A stretch of DNA of 64,000 nucleotides from an uncultured Coriobacteriaceae bacterium (lineage in GTDB: Bacteria; Actinomycetota; Coriobacteriia; Coriobacteriales; Atopobiaceae): assembly GCA_902790135.1 (NCBI GenBank), contig CADAQM010000005.1:22257-86256 (forward strand), in the 5' to 3' direction. The notes under the pieces are model-generated. The model saw only the letters and a program-made list of their open reading frames with translations. It was not told the DNA's origin and searched no databases. Below, piece after piece: positions 36,645-64,000 of the stretch (position 1 is its first letter; each line of letters begins with the position of its first letter). The position numbers were made by a program, and so were the translations under genes.

Positions 36645-36683
36645 GGGTGACACACAAACTCCCACGGAGAGAGTGTGTCACCC
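36645..36683. repeat. TGGCACAC-type hairpin repeat, copy A
   Basis: Perfect 11-bp arms GGGTGACACAC (36645-36655) and GTGTGTCACCC (36673-36683) around the loop AAACTCCCACGGAGAGA. Between convergent genes, so it may also terminate transcription. Confidence 0.8.
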
Positions 36684-39985: not shown

Positions 39986-40053
39986 ATGGCACACTTTCTC
40001 CGCGGGAGTTTGTGTGTCATGACACACAAACTCCCACGGAGAAAGTGTGCCAC
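39986..40053. repeat. TGGCACAC-type hairpin repeats, copies B and C in head-to-head pair
   Basis: Copy B (39986-40020) and copy C (40019-40053) are inverted relative to each other and meet at the palindrome GTGTGTCATGACACAC (40012-40027). Both have the CTCC/GGAG inner stem. They lie between the start of the coiled-coil gene and the end of the capsule operon. Confidence 0.8.
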
Positions 40054-52531: not shown

Positions 52532-52658
52532 AGGTGGCACACTCACTCTGTGGGAGTTTGTGTGCCACCTTTCGTATGGCACACTTTCTCCGTAGCAGGA
52601 GTTAGTGTGCCACCTTTCGTATGGCACACTTTCTCCGTAGCAGGAGTTAGTGTGCCAT
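52532..52658. repeat. TGGCACAC-type hairpin repeats, copies E, F and G (F/G in tandem)
   Basis: Copy E (52532-52570) has perfect 11-bp arms. Copies F (arms 52577-52585/52604-52612) and G (52622-52630/52649-52657) are a near-identical tandem with a 45-bp period. All share the CTCCG...GGAG inner part. Between two plus-strand genes. Confidence 0.85.
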
Positions 52659-52682: not shown

Positions 52683-53432
52683 ATGAATGCGAACGACAAC
52701 ATCATCGAGAGCCTCCATGCACGCGTGTCGATCCGCGCGTTCACCGATGAGCCCATCACCGCCGAGGAGGAGCGCACCATCCTCGAGGCCGCCTGTCAGG
52801 CTCCCACCGCAGGAAACCAGCAGCTCTACACCATCATCGTGGTGCGAGGCGAGGACAAGCGCAAGGCCCTCGTCGAGAGCTGCGACCACCAGCCCTTCAT
52901 CGCGCGGGCACCGCTCGTGCTCGTATTCTGCGCGGATGTGCGCCGCTGACATCGCGCCTTCACCGCCGCACAGGGCTGCGACCCCCGCGACCCAGGCGTG
53001 GGTGATGCCCTGCTCGCGTGCGTCGATGCCTCCATCGCTGCCCAGAACGCCGTTGTCGCCGCACAGGCCCTCGGCATCGGGTCGTGCTACATCGGCGACA
53101 TCATCGAGAACGCCGAGACCCAGCGCGAGATACTCGCCCTGCCTGACTATGTCATGCCCGCCTGCATGCTCGTGATGGGCCGCCCGACCGAGCAGCAGCT
53201 CCATCGCCAAAAGCCAAAGCGCTTTGACCTCGACACGATAGTAAGCGTGGACAGCTACCGAGACGCGCCGGAAGACGAGCTGCTCGAGGCCATAGGCAAC
53301 AAGCTCAGGGGTGGCGCGGAGTCGATTTCCGCCTTCTGCAACCGGAAGTGGAACAGCGACTTCTCACGAGAGATGACTCGTTCGGCCAAGGTCTGGCTCG
53401 ACGGGTTCCCCTTCGAGGATGTGGCACACTAA
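52683..53432 (+). pseudogene. Nitroreductase interrupted by an in-frame TGA
   Basis: A 249-codon nitroreductase frame with one TGA at 52947-52949. Before: SLHARVSIRAFTDEPIT, ACQAPTAGNQQLY and LVLVFCADVRR. After, in the same frame: HRAFTAAQGCDPRDPG, VDASIAAQNAVVAAQALGIGSCYIGDI and a C-terminal FxxE-type tail. The stop fits a Trp codon (TGG to TGA), as nitroreductases of this group often have Asp-x-x-Arg-Trp at that point. The FMN-binding RVSIR and the GIGSCYIG parts are on different sides of the break. The final codons lie inside hairpin repeat copy H. Confidence 0.8.
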
Positions 53433-53455
53433 CTCCCGCGGAGAGAATGCGCCAC
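53421..53455. repeat. TGGCACAC-type hairpin repeat, copy H, overlapping a gene end
   Basis: GTGGCACACTAACTCCCGCG with a diverged right arm GCGCCAC. The TAA stop of the nitroreductase frame is within the left part of the repeat. Confidence 0.7.
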
Positions 53456-57244: not shown

Positions 57245-58289
<1,045 letters not shown>

Positions 58290-58380
58290 CAAAGGGGTAG
58301 ACTATTCAACGAAGAGTACCTACCGCGAGGGCCTTTTTCCTTAGCCGTGCATCATGCGCCATGATGCTCACGCAATCAGG

Positions 58381-58457
58381 ACCACCCGCATGGCGGGTGG
58401 TTTGCTCTTAGGGTGTAACCCTAAGGGCCCCGGGCCAGGGACTCAAGTCCCTGGCCC
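58381..58457. other. Cluster of three perfect short-loop hairpins
   Basis: Hairpin 1 ACCACCCGC-ATG-GCGGGTGGT (58381-58401), hairpin 2 CTTAGGGT-GTA-ACCCTAAG (58407-58425), and hairpin 3 with 12-bp perfect arms (58432-58443/58446-58457) and a 2-nt loop. A fourth, GTGCCGGT-GGA-ACCGGCAC (59855-59873), lies on the other side of the IS and would be about 60 bp further on without it. The layout recalls the structured right end or omega-RNA of an IS200/IS605-type element, but no tnpB is present. Confidence 0.55.
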
Positions 58458-58466
58458 TCACTTCGT

Positions 58467-59817
58467 GGGTTATAGGACAAAACGTGTTGCCGTACCACCC
58501 GTCTTTCCCCAGTTAGAACCTGCTTTCTAGCCCCTTCAAGTTGTCGCCGACCGACTTTGAGGGTGGACAAAACGTGTTGCCGTCCCGCCTGCGTATCAGC
58601 AGGTAGACGCCGCTTTTCACGCGGTTTAAGTTGCCCACGTCCGATTGGTCGAGTCGATGGGCGACAAAATGCGAAGAGTCATGTGTCCGAGTTGCGGTGG
58701 GAAGGCGAAGAGGTTTGGCAGGACGGCGGCGGGCACGCAGCGTTGGCGCTGCCTCAGCTGCGGGCTCACCTTCGTGAACAAGCTCGACAACTCCGCAAAG
58801 AGGCTCGACGAGTTCCTGGGCTGGCTGCTCTCCAAGAAGGCGCAGGCGGACATGGCCGGCGGCGGCAGGACGTTTCGCAGGAGGACCGCCGAGTTCTGGC
58901 ACCTGTGGCCGCTGCCGCCCGTGACGGGCGAGGTGTGCCGGGTCGTGTTCGTGGACGGCATCTACCTGGGGCGCAAGGCCTGCGTGCTCGTCGCGAGGAG
59001 CGAGGAGCACGTCCTCGGCTGGTACGTGGCCAGAAGCGAGAGCTCGTGGGCCTACAAGGCGCTCATGGCCCGCATCGCGCCGCCGGAGGTCGTGGTGACG
59101 GACGGGGGGAGCGGCTTTCAGAAGGCAAGGCGCGAGATGTGGCCAAGGACAAGGGTCCAGCGGTGCACCTTCCACGCGTTCGAGCAGGTCAAGAGGTACA
59201 CGACCACGAGGCCCAGGACCCAGGCGGGAGTCGATCTCTACGCGCTCGCCAAGGAGCTTCTGAAGGTCGAGACCTCCGAGCAGGCGGCGGCATGGCTCGC
59301 GGCCTACGCCTCGTGGTGCGCGGCCTACGAAGACTTCCTGAGGGAGGAGACCACAAACGACGAAGGCAGGACGTTCCTCACGCACGAGCGGCTCGTCAAA
59401 GCCAGAAACTCCCTCACGGCGCTCGTGAGGCAGAAGACGCTCTTCACCTACGTGGACCCGGAGCTGGTGGGCCGCCTCGGCCCCCTCCCCGCCACCAACA
59501 ACGCCGTGGAGAGCACAAACGCCCAGCTCAGGAGCATGCTCAGGGAGCATCGCGGGCTGTCGCTCGAACGCAGGATAAAGGCCGTGTACTGGTGGTGCTA
59601 CATGCACACCGAGTGCCCGCTGCCCGCCGCGCAGCTCATCAAGGTCATGCCCACCGACAAGGACATCGCCAAGGAGATGGGCATGGTCGGCTACGGGGAC
59701 AGGGCCCGGGTCGGTCCTCAGAGGTGGGGTGACGGGCTGGTCTGGGAGGAGCTGCACAGGCAGACGCCGTGGCAGCGCGACTGGGACTGACCAGCAACAC
59801 GTTTTGTCCTATAACCC
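58467..59817 (+). mobile_element. Complete insertion sequence, IS1249-like (IS256 group)
   Basis: 1351 bp bounded by perfect 24-bp inverted repeats (58467-58490 and 59794-59817; outer ends GGGTTATAGG/CCTATAACCC). An 8-bp direct duplication CACTTCGT flanks it (58459-58466 and 59818-59825), as expected for this group. One transposase gene fills most of it. The left end carries a second copy of the inner terminal sequence (GGACAAAACGTGTTGCCGT at 58474 and about 58565), that is, a roughly 90-bp diverged tandem duplication. Confidence 0.93.
58657..59790 (+). CDS. IS1249-family transposase
   Basis: A 377-aa transposase, apparently intact. N-terminal zinc ribbon with CPSCGG and CLSCGL, then the DDE catalytic triad: D100 in VVFVDGIY, D149 in VVVTDGGSG and E285 in NNAVESTNAQL. 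The C-H motif region RVQRCTFHAFEQVKR lies between the second D and the E, as in the IS256/Mutator group. The start is uncertain (TTG 58645 or ATG 58657/58669). It lies wholly inside the IS and ends 3 bp before the right inverted repeat. Confidence 0.9.
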   Translation: MGDKMRRVMCPSCGGKAKRFGRTAAGTQRWRCLSCGLTFVNKLDNSAKRLDEFLGWLLSKKAQADMAGGGRTFRRRTAEFWHLWPLPPVTGEVCRVVFVDGIYLGRKACVLVARSEEHVLGWYVARSESSWAYKALMARIAPPEVVVTDGGSGFQKARREMWPRTRVQRCTFHAFEQVKRYTTTRPRTQAGVDLYALAKELLKVETSEQAAAWLAAYASWCAAYEDFLREETTNDEGRTFLTHERLVKARNSLTALVRQKTLFTYVDPELVGRLGPLPATNNAVESTNAQLRSMLREHRGLSLERRIKAVYWWCYMHTECPLPAAQLIKVMPTDKDIAKEMGMVGYGDRARVGPQRWGDGLVWEELHRQTPWQRDWD

Positions 59818-59880
59818 CACTTCGTTCAGGCCCAATAGCCCCTTGACTCGTGGCGTGCCGGTGGAACCGGCACCGCGCGG
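59818..59880. other. Right-hand remainder of the hairpin cluster
   Basis: After the IS the sequence resumes with the target duplicate, then AATAGCCCCTTGACTCGTGG and the hairpin GTGCCGGT/ACCGGCAC (59855-59873), ending at the stop of the next gene. The AGCCCC-TGACTC segment recalls right ends of IS605-type elements (from memory, unverified). Confidence 0.45.
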
Positions 59881-60660
59881 TTACCTGGATCCCGCGACAG
59901 ACTCCACATCCAAGCACAACAGCTGCAGCTGTTCCCTCATGCCAGGGATAACCGCTGGAACTGCCAAACCCGCCATAACGCGGGCATTGTCACGTAAGAT
60001 CCCTGCTTGCGCCTCATCTATCTTGAAATTGTATCGCTGGGTCAGCAACCCCTTTGCATCGTATTTGACGCTAATCTCTGCGACATACTCACCCGCTTGC
60101 CAGAAGCAATCCTTCCCAAGCTCATCAATTGCCGCACTGACCGCTTGCTCTGAAAGCACTTCCTCCAAGCTACAGCGTTTCTCGCACGCATGGCCTATCG
60201 CCTTCAAAAGCATCTCCATACGATGATGATGATTCACTCCCCCGGTTGCCTCAAATTCGACATTCAGAGGCTCGAGTTTGCCTTCGCAGACCTTGATTGG
60301 ATGAACTAGGGTGGCGCTGGTGATAGATGCCTGTTGAGGACCCGCAAACATCCAATTCGCGAAAATGGGTTTGAGCTGATTCCACTTAACCTCATATGAG
60401 CACCCGCCACCAAGACGCTCTGCCCTAAAGATAATCGACTTTACGACACAGGCTTGCTTTTCGCATTGAATCGAAAAACAAAACCTTGCATACGAACCGA
60501 AGCGATCGAAGTTAAGTATCAATGGTTGCACATCGAATGGAATGATGCTAACAATCGGTCGCCGCATCTTATGGTATATGAATTGAACAAGCGGTATTGC
60601 TACAGATACCAGAATCGCAGTGACTGACACCAAAATACTTATTCTTTCATATTGTGTCAA
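59881..60660 (-). CDS. Membrane-anchored protein of unknown function
   Basis: A 259-aa protein with one N-terminal transmembrane helix (about residues 8-28, ILVSVTAILVSVAIPLVQFI) followed by a soluble beta-rich domain. Contains VHPIKVCEGKLEPLNVEFEA and NHHHRMEMLLKAIGHACEK segments; I recognise no family. Base composition is clearly more AT-rich than the metabolic genes to the left, which suggests recent acquisition. It has no close partner. In other genomes small TM-anchored proteins like this often sit in defence islands, so a role there is possible but not shown. Confidence 0.65.
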   Translation of the reverse strand: MTQYERISILVSVTAILVSVAIPLVQFIYHKMRRPIVSIIPFDVQPLILNFDRFGSYARFCFSIQCEKQACVVKSIIFRAERLGGGCSYEVKWNQLKPIFANWMFAGPQQASITSATLVHPIKVCEGKLEPLNVEFEATGGVNHHHRMEMLLKAIGHACEKRCSLEEVLSEQAVSAAIDELGKDCFWQAGEYVAEISVKYDAKGLLTQRYNFKIDEAQAGILRDNARVMAGLAVPAVIPGMREQLQLLCLDVESVAGSR

Positions 60661-61209
60661 TTACGCCTCCGCATATCTTCTTGATATCAAGCCGACACTT
60701 ACGCGTACCATTGCCTCCCGTGGCTCAGCCTCAGCATCTCCGACAAGAAAATGCTGACCGCCAATGCCTGCTCACGCCCAGATGACGAGGTGTATGAATG
60801 TGCACCCACCTGCACTCTGCTTAATTCTGCCAGCCTCGTTCATCTCCCACAAGCACTCAAGTGTCCTGTATAGATTGTTAGCAGAGCCTACGCGAAGGGC
60901 TCAGTCTCCCATTAGAAACACTATAGCCCTTATTCTTCGTTGTCCTCGTCCGACGCGGATTATTCCTATCTCTACCATCAGTCTTACCCGCAACGCTATC
61001 TTCTGTTACACCATTAACAGAGCCTCGCCCTAAGTTACCAGCATCCACTTCTGACTGGCCTCCATGGACGACTCCGCGATCCGCTCCAGGTTATAGACGG
61101 CCCCAGCATGCGGGAATGCTTCGCCAAGAGGAGGGGCAGTACGTAGCGGTACCACACTGGACTGCTGGCACCGCGTGGGGTTGCTACTCAGCAATCAAAC
61201 ACCCGCCCA
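60661..61209. other. Intergenic region with a possible gene remnant
   Basis: About 550 bp without a supported gene. On the minus strand, 61140-61030 reads open without stops and ends PHAGAVYNLERIAESSMEASQKWMLVT-like sequence (shown in part), with protein-like composition but no start codon, so it may be the tail of a lost gene. No repeats or terminator of note. Confidence 0.35.
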
Positions 61210-64000
61210 CTACCGCCTATGGAAGCTTTCCCATCTCTCCCTCTTCATCCAACGCTCCAGATCAGCAACCATCTCCGCAATGCGTACCCTATGGACTACA
61301 TATTCCGAGCTGCCGGAAAGCTCGGCGCTCAACTTTTTGAGCATCTCAATTTCTTCCACATACTGAGGCGCAAAGCCATCGTTGCCAAACCCCGAGAACG
61401 ACATCGGATACACGGGAAGGAACTGCAGCAATCGGACATCCTTTATCTGGGAGAACACCCTGGAATAGATGCTATATCTCACCTGCGCAGGCAAATCCTC
61501 CAAAACTATTCTCAACGAGGCAACTCGCTCCAAGTCATCCCATCTAGTGGTGATGTAATAAACGATGAAGTCCAGAAGCGAAAAGTCCTCCCATAGCCAC
61601 GTATTGTGCTCAGACAGAAGATCCATCACAAGCCATGGAGAAGCAGAGTCGGCCATGTAATCAATGACCTTCCCCATCCATTCGAACGAATCCTGAGGTA
61701 GTTTGCTCAAGTAACCCAGTCGTTCAATTGCGTCACCCGCAATATGGCTTTGCCCTGTTGAAGCCACAGCAACCAGCTCTGCGACGATGGACGAGCCCTT
61801 TGTGAACAAATACTCAAAGACAGCGCCAGTTTCATCGAACCTAGGATTGTTCATGTTTGCAAAGAAGAACTCCTTCAACGCTGCGGTGTCATCACCTACC
61901 ATGCGCTGCAAGAGCTCTTGCGCACCCTCTCGGTATCCAAGCGAGTTAAAGAAATGCACAGAGGATGAGGGGTCATCCGAAAGCCAGTGTTCCTTCGCCC
62001 GCCAAAACCTCTGCGCAAATCCTGGCTGCATTGAATCGATGCGGTTTATATCATCGACCTTCATCCAAACGGATGACAGCCCCTGACTCGCAAGAATCTC
62101 AAAAAGAGTCTGGTCGCTCACATCGCTCTTCGGAATCATGCCGTCAACAGCCGCTACCAGACCCCAGAGACTATGCTGCAGCGTCATGTATCTCACATAA
62201 GTATAGCCACAAGCATCAATAACACTCTTTATCGTTGGCGGAGATAGCAGCTGTGGCACCTCGTTTGCACAGAAGTGCTCGAACGCCTTCTCAACAGACT
62301 CTTTCTCAAAGTTCTTAGCAATGAACATCATGGCGCGGTCGGTCACGTAATACAGCCTATACTCATCAAGCTGCTCCGCGGCGCGGGCACTTCCGCAGTA
62401 TGTGACCAGAGCATCAAGATCTGCAATGCTCAGAACCTCCAGCTTCTTGGTGTTGTCCAAGTACCTATCCATAGCACTCGACTCAAAGACATCAAGCGCT
62501 GTGGCAAATTCGGATCCCACTTCGATATCAAACAGTTCCTCATAATCCAGACCCAAAGCTGAGCAAGATTCTTGAACGGCATATAAGAGCTTGTCCTCAC
62601 CCTGGAGCGGCGCCGGATTCTCTTGCAGGCAACGCGCTAGAGAGTCGACATCACCTTTCGCAATCTCTTCACCCAAACCACGTGATGAGAAGCACGCGAA
62701 AAGGCTGTTTATCGCAGCTTTCCGGAACTCATGAATATGGCTCAGCGTAACTAAGCCCGAGATTGACAGCTCCCGAAGGCTTCTAAGCGAATCGGAATCT
62801 GATACCTGCCACTGCTTGATAGCAAAAGAGTTCGGGTCATCACCGCTCATGACGCTTTCATACTGGACCCTAAGGTAAAGCTCACATAACCTGTGCAGGG
62901 CAGTCGATACATTCTGGTTTGAGCCTGCTTGCACCATTTGGAGCAATCGAGATAGCAGGCGGCGCTCGTCCTTAAAGTCATTAGCCATGGATACGACATC
63001 GGGAGCCAAAAGCCGTTCGAAAGCCATCTTGTATGAGCTAACTGCATCGCCACCCTTTTCAAACAGTGCGATAAGCAGATCCATGCCAACGAGCCAGCGA
63101 GAAGACCCCTTTGTCCCGCAGACTATGGACATGGGCAGGGAAGCTGCACCAATAGCGGCGCGTTGATACTCCTCCCCAGTCGCAATCGACCCGTCCGCCA
63201 TCTCATCTATTGAACATTGGGCATACTCAAGATCGTAAGGCTCAAGCAGCTGATGCAGCACCCCCATCGCAGACTGTCTTGCGGCGCCATCGCTTTCAGG
63301 CAAAGAACGCCAGTAACCACACGCCGCACGCTGTACTTCCTCAATAGTCTCGGTGCATGAGAAGGACCCAAGCAGGATGCTGAGCGAGGCGCAGAGCTCG
63401 TCCTGTCTTGCCCCTATCATGACGCGAATGTACTCTTCCAGCGGAATGATACGGTCCACCATGAGCGCCTTGTAAATGCAGTAGTCCCTGAGGTTCTGCT
63501 GCTCAAAACGAACGGCACGAGCACCGTCGTTGTTGCTAAGCATGTCAATTATTGACATGCTGGACAGCCTTGTCACGCTGGCGGAGAGCAGTCGGGGCTC
63601 GCATACGAACTCCGCGATTCTGTCATACGCCCTGTCTCCAGGCTCAAGATCAGATACACCGTTCAGGCTAAACTCCTCAAGAATCCTCATGTCATTCTCT
63701 GTCAGATGCTTTGCCAGACCAGAGAAGAACAGGTCCAGGATGCTGTATGCATTCCTGATGGCGGGATACCCTTGCTCTTTGCTCTGCATGCCGGCCATAA
63801 TCGCAAGGCGAAGGTTGCCCTTTGCCACGCGCTCGATCTGCTCAATATAGTATGGATTCGTGATGCCAAGGTCTTCTTTCAAAAGAGAGGAAACCTCGGC
63901 TTTGCCCAAAGGAGCTATGCTTTGCCACGCAGGCTTCATGTAGCCTCGTATGGCTTCCTCAATCTTGCCTGTAGCGTAATCACGAACAGTGAGCACCAGT
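61210..64000 (-). CDS. STAND-type ATPase, C-terminal part (runs off the window)
   Basis: At least 928 aa and open at the window edge; the N-terminal P-loop part lies beyond 64000. Near the visible start, LKEDLGITNPYYIEQIERVA and KGNLRLAIMAG match the sensor-2/winged-helix end of nSTAND NTPases. The rest is a long all-helical repeat array (about residues 110-928) such as those that sense phage or other ligands in STAND immune proteins. Composition is AT-richer than the left part of the window. Defence function is an inference from architecture; without the N-terminus neither the Walker motifs nor an effector domain can be checked. Confidence 0.65.
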   Translation of the reverse strand, partial: LVLTVRDYATGKIEEAIRGYMKPAWQSIAPLGKAEVSSLLKEDLGITNPYYIEQIERVAKGNLRLAIMAGMQSKEQGYPAIRNAYSILDLFFSGLAKHLTENDMRILEEFSLNGVSDLEPGDRAYDRIAEFVCEPRLLSASVTRLSSMSIIDMLSNNDGARAVRFEQQNLRDYCIYKALMVDRIIPLEEYIRVMIGARQDELCASLSILLGSFSCTETIEEVQRAACGYWRSLPESDGAARQSAMGVLHQLLEPYDLEYAQCSIDEMADGSIATGEEYQRAAIGAASLPMSIVCGTKGSSRWLVGMDLLIALFEKGGDAVSSYKMAFERLLAPDVVSMANDFKDERRLLSRLLQMVQAGSNQNVSTALHRLCELYLRVQYESVMSGDDPNSFAIKQWQVSDSDSLRSLRELSISGLVTLSHIHEFRKAAINSLFACFSSRGLGEEIAKGDVDSLARCLQENPAPLQGEDKLLYAVQESCSALGLDYEELFDIEVGSEFATALDVFESSAMDRYLDNTKKLEVLSIADLDALVTYCGSARAAEQLDEYRLYYVTDRAMMFIAKNFEKESVEKAFEHFCANEVPQLLSPPTIKSVIDACGYTYVRYMTLQHSLWGLVAAVDGMIPKSDVSDQTLFEILASQGLSSVWMKVDDINRIDSMQPGFAQRFWRAKEHWLSDDPSSSVHFFNSLGYREGAQELLQRMVGDDTAALKEFFFANMNNPRFDETGAVFEYLFTKGSSIVAELVAVASTGQSHIAGDAIERLGYLSKLPQDSFEWMGKVIDYMADSASPWLVMDLLSEHNTWLWEDFSLLDFIVYYITTRWDDLERVASLRIVLEDLPAQVRYSIYSRVFSQIKDVRLLQFLPVYPMSFSGFGNDGFAPQYVEEIEMLKKLSAELSGSSEYVVHRVRIAEMVADLERWMKRERWESFHRR

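Follow-up and report, generated by a model that had tools for sequence, protein, structure and literature searches.

An IS1249-family insertion sequence nested in an apparent relic of an IS200-type right end with a conserved multi-helix fold in Coriobacteriia

In the IS200/IS605 family, the transposase TnpA binds a hairpin at each end of the element, as stated in the relevant part of PMC7290912. The same part of PMC7290912 records a PATE-like derivative of IS605. Members of the IS200 group carry a Y1 HUH transposase only. For the IS200 of Salmonella, a structured RNA is reported in part of PMC12594629, and it comes from the 5' end of the tnpA transcript, which is the other end from the region described here. 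In this study, we analysed a window of 64,000 nt, the whole stretch of DNA considered below, from an uncultured Coriobacteriaceae bacterium. We are highly confident that this window contains two nested, ordinary mobile elements, an IS1249-family DDE insertion sequence within the relic of an IS200-type right end. Both elements are of known kinds, and the nested event is itself an ordinary one. The features of the locus, in window positions, are the following.

58373–58466, minus strand (tnpA sense): IS200-type right end, outer part with helices 6, 5 and 4; 90% match to the copy on contig C8 of the same genome
58381–58401, no strand: hairpin 1, which is helix 6, ACCACCCGC-ATG-GCGGGTGGT; intact copies have a hairpin of this type at their left end
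58407–58425, no strand: hairpin 2, which is helix 5
58432–58457, no strand: hairpin 3, which is helix 4, with the longest stem
58459–58466, no strand: target duplication CACTTCGT, left copy, from the sequence
58467–59817, plus strand: complete insertion sequence of 1,351 bp, IS1249 family by NCBIfam (IS256-related)
58645–59790, plus strand: transposase of 381 aa with an N-terminal zinc-binding domain and a DDE-type core, from profile matches
59818–59825, no strand: target duplication CACTTCGT, right copy, from the sequence
59826–59887, minus strand: IS200-type right end, inner part with helices 1 and 2 and part of helix 3; reaches the old tnpA stop codon
59855–59873, no strand: hairpin 4, which is helix 1
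59881–60660, minus strand: hypothetical ORF of 259 aa with its TAA stop within the IS200 relic, from the ORF list

The inverted ends of the insertion sequence (58467–58490 and 59794–59817) are 24 nt long and 100% complementary, the two 8-bp copies of CACTTCGT are identical, and the transposase frame is open over its 381 aa in the ORF list. These are the signs from which a first-pass annotation of the DNA had deduced a recent insertion, and all of them hold. The transposase matches NCBIfam NF033544 (transpos_IS1249) at 465.3 bits, above the cut-off of 300 bits, over nearly its full length and with the core covered, and the IS256 models match the same protein more weakly. In Pfam, it scores slightly above the cut-off of 21 for Transposase_mut (22.2 bits) and slightly below that of 27.6 for MULE (26.6 bits). 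The score above the NF033544 cut-off, the terminal inverted repeats and the 8-bp target duplication are shared with the IS256-related IS1249 family. By comparison, the window element stands apart as a member from Coriobacteriia whose left end contains an imperfect tandem copy of 80 nt (58475–58554 and 58565–58644, 71% identical). This copy extends over the innermost 16 nt of the inverted end and is possibly a second, putative transposase binding site. The window holds the only full-length copy of the insertion sequence found in its own genome, a draft of 65 contigs. In a congener (G007), a full-length copy with 98% identity is flanked by its own 8-bp duplication, CGGATGCA, and the ends of the element and the length of its duplication are therefore fixed independently. 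Furthermore, an exact search found the 20-nt tip of the element in 14 of 396 genomes of the class.

Without the insertion sequence, the target is a 156-nt element (58373–58466 plus 59826–59887) with hairpins 1 to 3 on the left and hairpin 4 on the right of the insertion, in keeping with the initial proposal that a pre-existing hairpin cluster had been interrupted. The left cluster has an RNA folding energy with z = –7.1, and none of 200 shuffles is as low. An uninterrupted copy with a single CACTTCGT lies on C8, where both flanks find their match. Joined with one CACTTCGT, the flanks align to the C8 copy with 147 of 156 positions identical (94%), a single gap (6 nt, between hairpins 1 and 2) and zero differences over 60 nt around the junction, so that removal of the insertion sequence rejoins hairpins 1 to 3 with the fourth, as predicted. 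The inner right end alone matches C8 at 99% over bases 1–70 of 59818–59900. Insertion into the relic is shown by three features together, namely the inverted repeats at the ends of the insertion sequence, the target duplication and the copy with an empty site. The first-pass annotation had named the absence of an intact copy anywhere as evidence against its reading; uninterrupted copies exist on C8 and in other Coriobacteriia genomes. Its loops of 2–3 nt need one correction, as the spacer of hairpin 3 is indeed 2 nt but its fold leaves a 4-nt loop.

The C8 copy immediately follows a fragment of a Y1 transposase gene, which is read towards and into the element (Pfam Y1_Tnp, 43.6 bits). This tnpA gene is decayed, being recovered by tblastn in three pieces, and one frame across the gene has stops. 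On C8 and across Coriobacteriia, the 156-nt element makes up the 3' (right) terminus of IS200-type elements, after a Y1 (HUH) tnpA. Matches to the 157-nt C8 element occur in 25 of 150 genomes, its own included, and scanning the species-genome collection for an exact pattern yielded 35 stretches, all from Coriobacteriia (Olsenella, Collinsella, Atopobium, Thermophilibacter, Eggerthella, Eggerthellaceae, Coriobacteriaceae and one 'Coriobacteriia bacterium'). In 23 of these 35, the contig ends within the element or just behind it; contig breaks at multi-copy elements are usual in short-read assemblies. Among the 12 that run on, tnpA is seen in 10, in one of them only as its last part, and two (L055 and L063) break off. 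The element has a single plasmid match, a Collinsella record, and the phage and viral collections contain no match to it.

A covariance model built from 21 copies extends this picture. When strong and weak model matches are taken together, tnpA is directly upstream in 42 of the 68 examined and not detectable in 26. Among the strong matches with sequence upstream (E ≤ 5.5e-24), the proportion is 37 of 43, counted by hand and excluding L111, which has 23 nt upstream. The 26 matches lacking tnpA are mostly weak, with strong ones at L095, L110, L113, L130 and L140 among them, and L093 has the tail of tnpA only, like L027. Some of the matches without tnpA must therefore be relics, free-standing copies or hairpins that arose by chance. 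In the reverse direction, each of the 12 full-length tnpA hits, drawn from 149 genomes, is followed by a model match immediately after its stop codon, a count that includes several near-identical copies within one genome.

Each end of an intact copy bears the hairpin CCACCCGC-NNN-GCGGGTGG; the two are approximately 600–700 nt apart with tnpA between them, and the left-end hairpin reads CCACCCGCNNNGCGGGTGG. These paired end hairpins fit the rule for TnpA given in the cited part of PMC7290912. In intact copies, the left-end hairpin recurs as helix 6. By the known IS200/IS605 mechanism, helix 6 would therefore most likely be the subterminal hairpin bound by TnpA on single-stranded DNA. A Y1 HUH transposase gene is present in the intact relatives, decayed at C8 and absent from the window copy; the relatives have subterminal hairpins at both ends, the window copy the right one only. 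The lineage shares with the IS200 group its Y1_Tnp tnpA, its matching subterminal hairpins and the fact that no tnpB was seen; it differs in its right end, which spans approximately 150 nt and comprises six helices and not just a single hairpin, with compensatory changes in five of the six. The left end and 5' part of one intact copy (L017, 8–145, plus strand) also match the Rfam family Hrs10 at 35.5 bits (E 1.4e-4), below the gathering threshold of 108.

Judged from its sequence, the window copy is a relic of such a right end. Identity to C8 ends at 59887, four bases into the old tnpA coding end and next to its TAA stop (59881–59883, minus strand), which is shared as the stop of the neighbouring 259-aa ORF. 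The window contains no trace of tnpA, and a search of 59888–64000 for a left end returned none, just short words at chance level (best E 0.04). The 259-aa ORF has no Pfam or NCBIfam match; its homologues, sought in 150 genomes as a test for truncation, amounted to none but itself. The ORF was probably fused to the relic by deletion or rearrangement. We also considered it as the cargo of a two-ended element, an idea rejected on the lack of a tnpA trace or a left end in the window. Just upstream of the relic, a 128-aa ORF (57903–58289, plus strand) matches a CdiA C-terminal domain (Pfam PF18451, 35.7 bits, cut-off 26.6) and has no PADLOC match. Further upstream, a dTDP-glucose 4,6-dehydratase fragment (57245–57943, minus strand) matches the C-terminal half of its model only (147–320 of 321) and is probably a pseudogene.

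A two-step history would account for this arrangement. An IS200-type element with left-end hairpins, Y1 tnpA and a structured right end would have occupied the site first. Deletion or rearrangement would then have taken the left end and tnpA, so that only the 156-nt right end was left, abutting an unrelated ORF at the stop codon of tnpA. The IS1249-family DDE element came second; it entered this relic in the apical region of helix 3, where the target was cut with an 8-bp stagger. Lacking a partner end, the relic should now be inert unless TnpA finds another left end.

Covariation was scored on 40 copies aligned to the covariance model and indicates that the fold of the 3' region is under selection. 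Across these copies, 93.3% of the pairing cells can pair, a value that falls to 32–45% when the partners are slid by 1–3 columns. Cells changed on both sides number 117, against 38.7 ± 6.1 in shuffles and with 0 of 500 shuffles reaching this count, a strength that is somewhat overstated because the alignment was fitted to the structure. Compensatory changes are present in every helix but helix 2, in which pairing is also weak (79.5%). Two further measures are less striking, namely pairs with two-sided change (15 versus 11.9 in shuffles, reached by 20 of 500) and further pair types (42 versus 38.8, 57 of 500). As a test for the strand that carries the structure, G-U cells were set against A-C cells on the tnpA-sense strand; they number 55 to 41, and 26 to 13 in a smaller alignment, without a clear preference. 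The one part of the locus that may be new is an IS200 lineage of Coriobacteriia with a long, conserved, multi-helix 3' region; a literature search of limited depth met no description of a structured 3' region in this class. For helices 1–5, which are kept as well, a role within the 3' portion of the tnpA transcript or in shielding tnpA from outside transcription would seem probable. The 5' RNA of the Salmonella IS200, as far as it is described in the cited part of PMC12594629, makes an RNA role for the 3' region thinkable by analogy. A stronger proposal holds that the six-helix region of approximately 150 nt, which has no entry in Rfam 15, forms an undescribed functional RNA that derives from the tnpA transcript and controls transposition or acts in trans on the host; this proposal strikes us as doubtful. 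The model matches 73 of the 396 class genomes, and a structured tail so widely and, in the relatives of this bacterium, unusually well conserved on a minimal one-gene transposon poses the question of whether it works as single-stranded transposon DNA or as RNA.

Other identities for the hairpin cluster have to be weighed against an IS200-type right end. The first-pass annotation had hinted that the element might belong to tnpB or iscB, and a guide-RNA element of the omega-RNA/HEARO kind would likewise form a structured right end of approximately 150 nt that lies immediately 3' of a gene of the transposon, as IS605 elements show. On C8 and in the relatives, however, the adjoining gene is a Y1 tnpA, with no tnpB or iscB recognised beside the element, and a search of the window's own genome for PF07282, the family of the TnpB nuclease domain, gave no match. 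None of 10 upstream ORFs at model-match loci, read by eye, was recognisable as TnpB; some of them presumably resemble SecY and RpoC. Nor does the element match a described RNA family: no Rfam family reaches the gathering threshold anywhere in the window, permissive scans of 58200–60100 and four loci gave sub-threshold rows only, and no sequence similarity to omega-RNA/HEARO RNAs was seen. Membership in the TnpB/IscB omega-RNAs was rejected on both the gene neighbour and the RNA family, and we regard it as extremely unlikely. With the guide-RNA reading removed, the identity of the hairpin cluster is settled.

The absence of tnpA from some copies, together with the PATE-like element on record, would suit a different view, in which the 156-nt piece would be a PATE- or REP-like mobile element in its own right, non-autonomous and dependent for its movement on an IS200 TnpA supplied in trans. 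Such derivatives are likewise short, gene-less, palindrome-rich remnants of an IS200/IS605 end. The PATE-like element, as described in that part of PMC7290912, keeps the sequence of both ends, whereas the window copy has one end only, 59888–64000 being without a left-end hairpin, and gives no sign of movement. Its inner boundary is moreover the old tnpA stop codon, which suits truncation, and we find independent mobility very unlikely. As for the insertion sequence, a preference for hairpins, with the target picked for its structure, is suggested by a 12-bp stem adjoining the window site, a 7-bp terminator-like stem near the G007 site and an 11-bp stem near one site in G075. Against this, a stem of at least 8 bp lies within 50 nt in only 2 of 26 flanks, not all of them independent sites, as compared with 1.9% of 1,052 background windows; the preference is unsupported because the site numbers are too small, and it appears improbable. 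The preferred reading thus stays with an IS1249-family element in an IS200-type right-end relic.

Elsewhere in the window, a short dispersed motif, GAGTTNGTGTGCCA, is often paired as hairpins (52535–52657 and 53422–53435, with weaker occurrences at 36648–36661 and 40006–40033). At 52553–52657, it recurs in tandem, as 2.3 copies of a 45-bp unit. The motif is REP-like, with 8 matches at no more than one mismatch against 0.11 expected.
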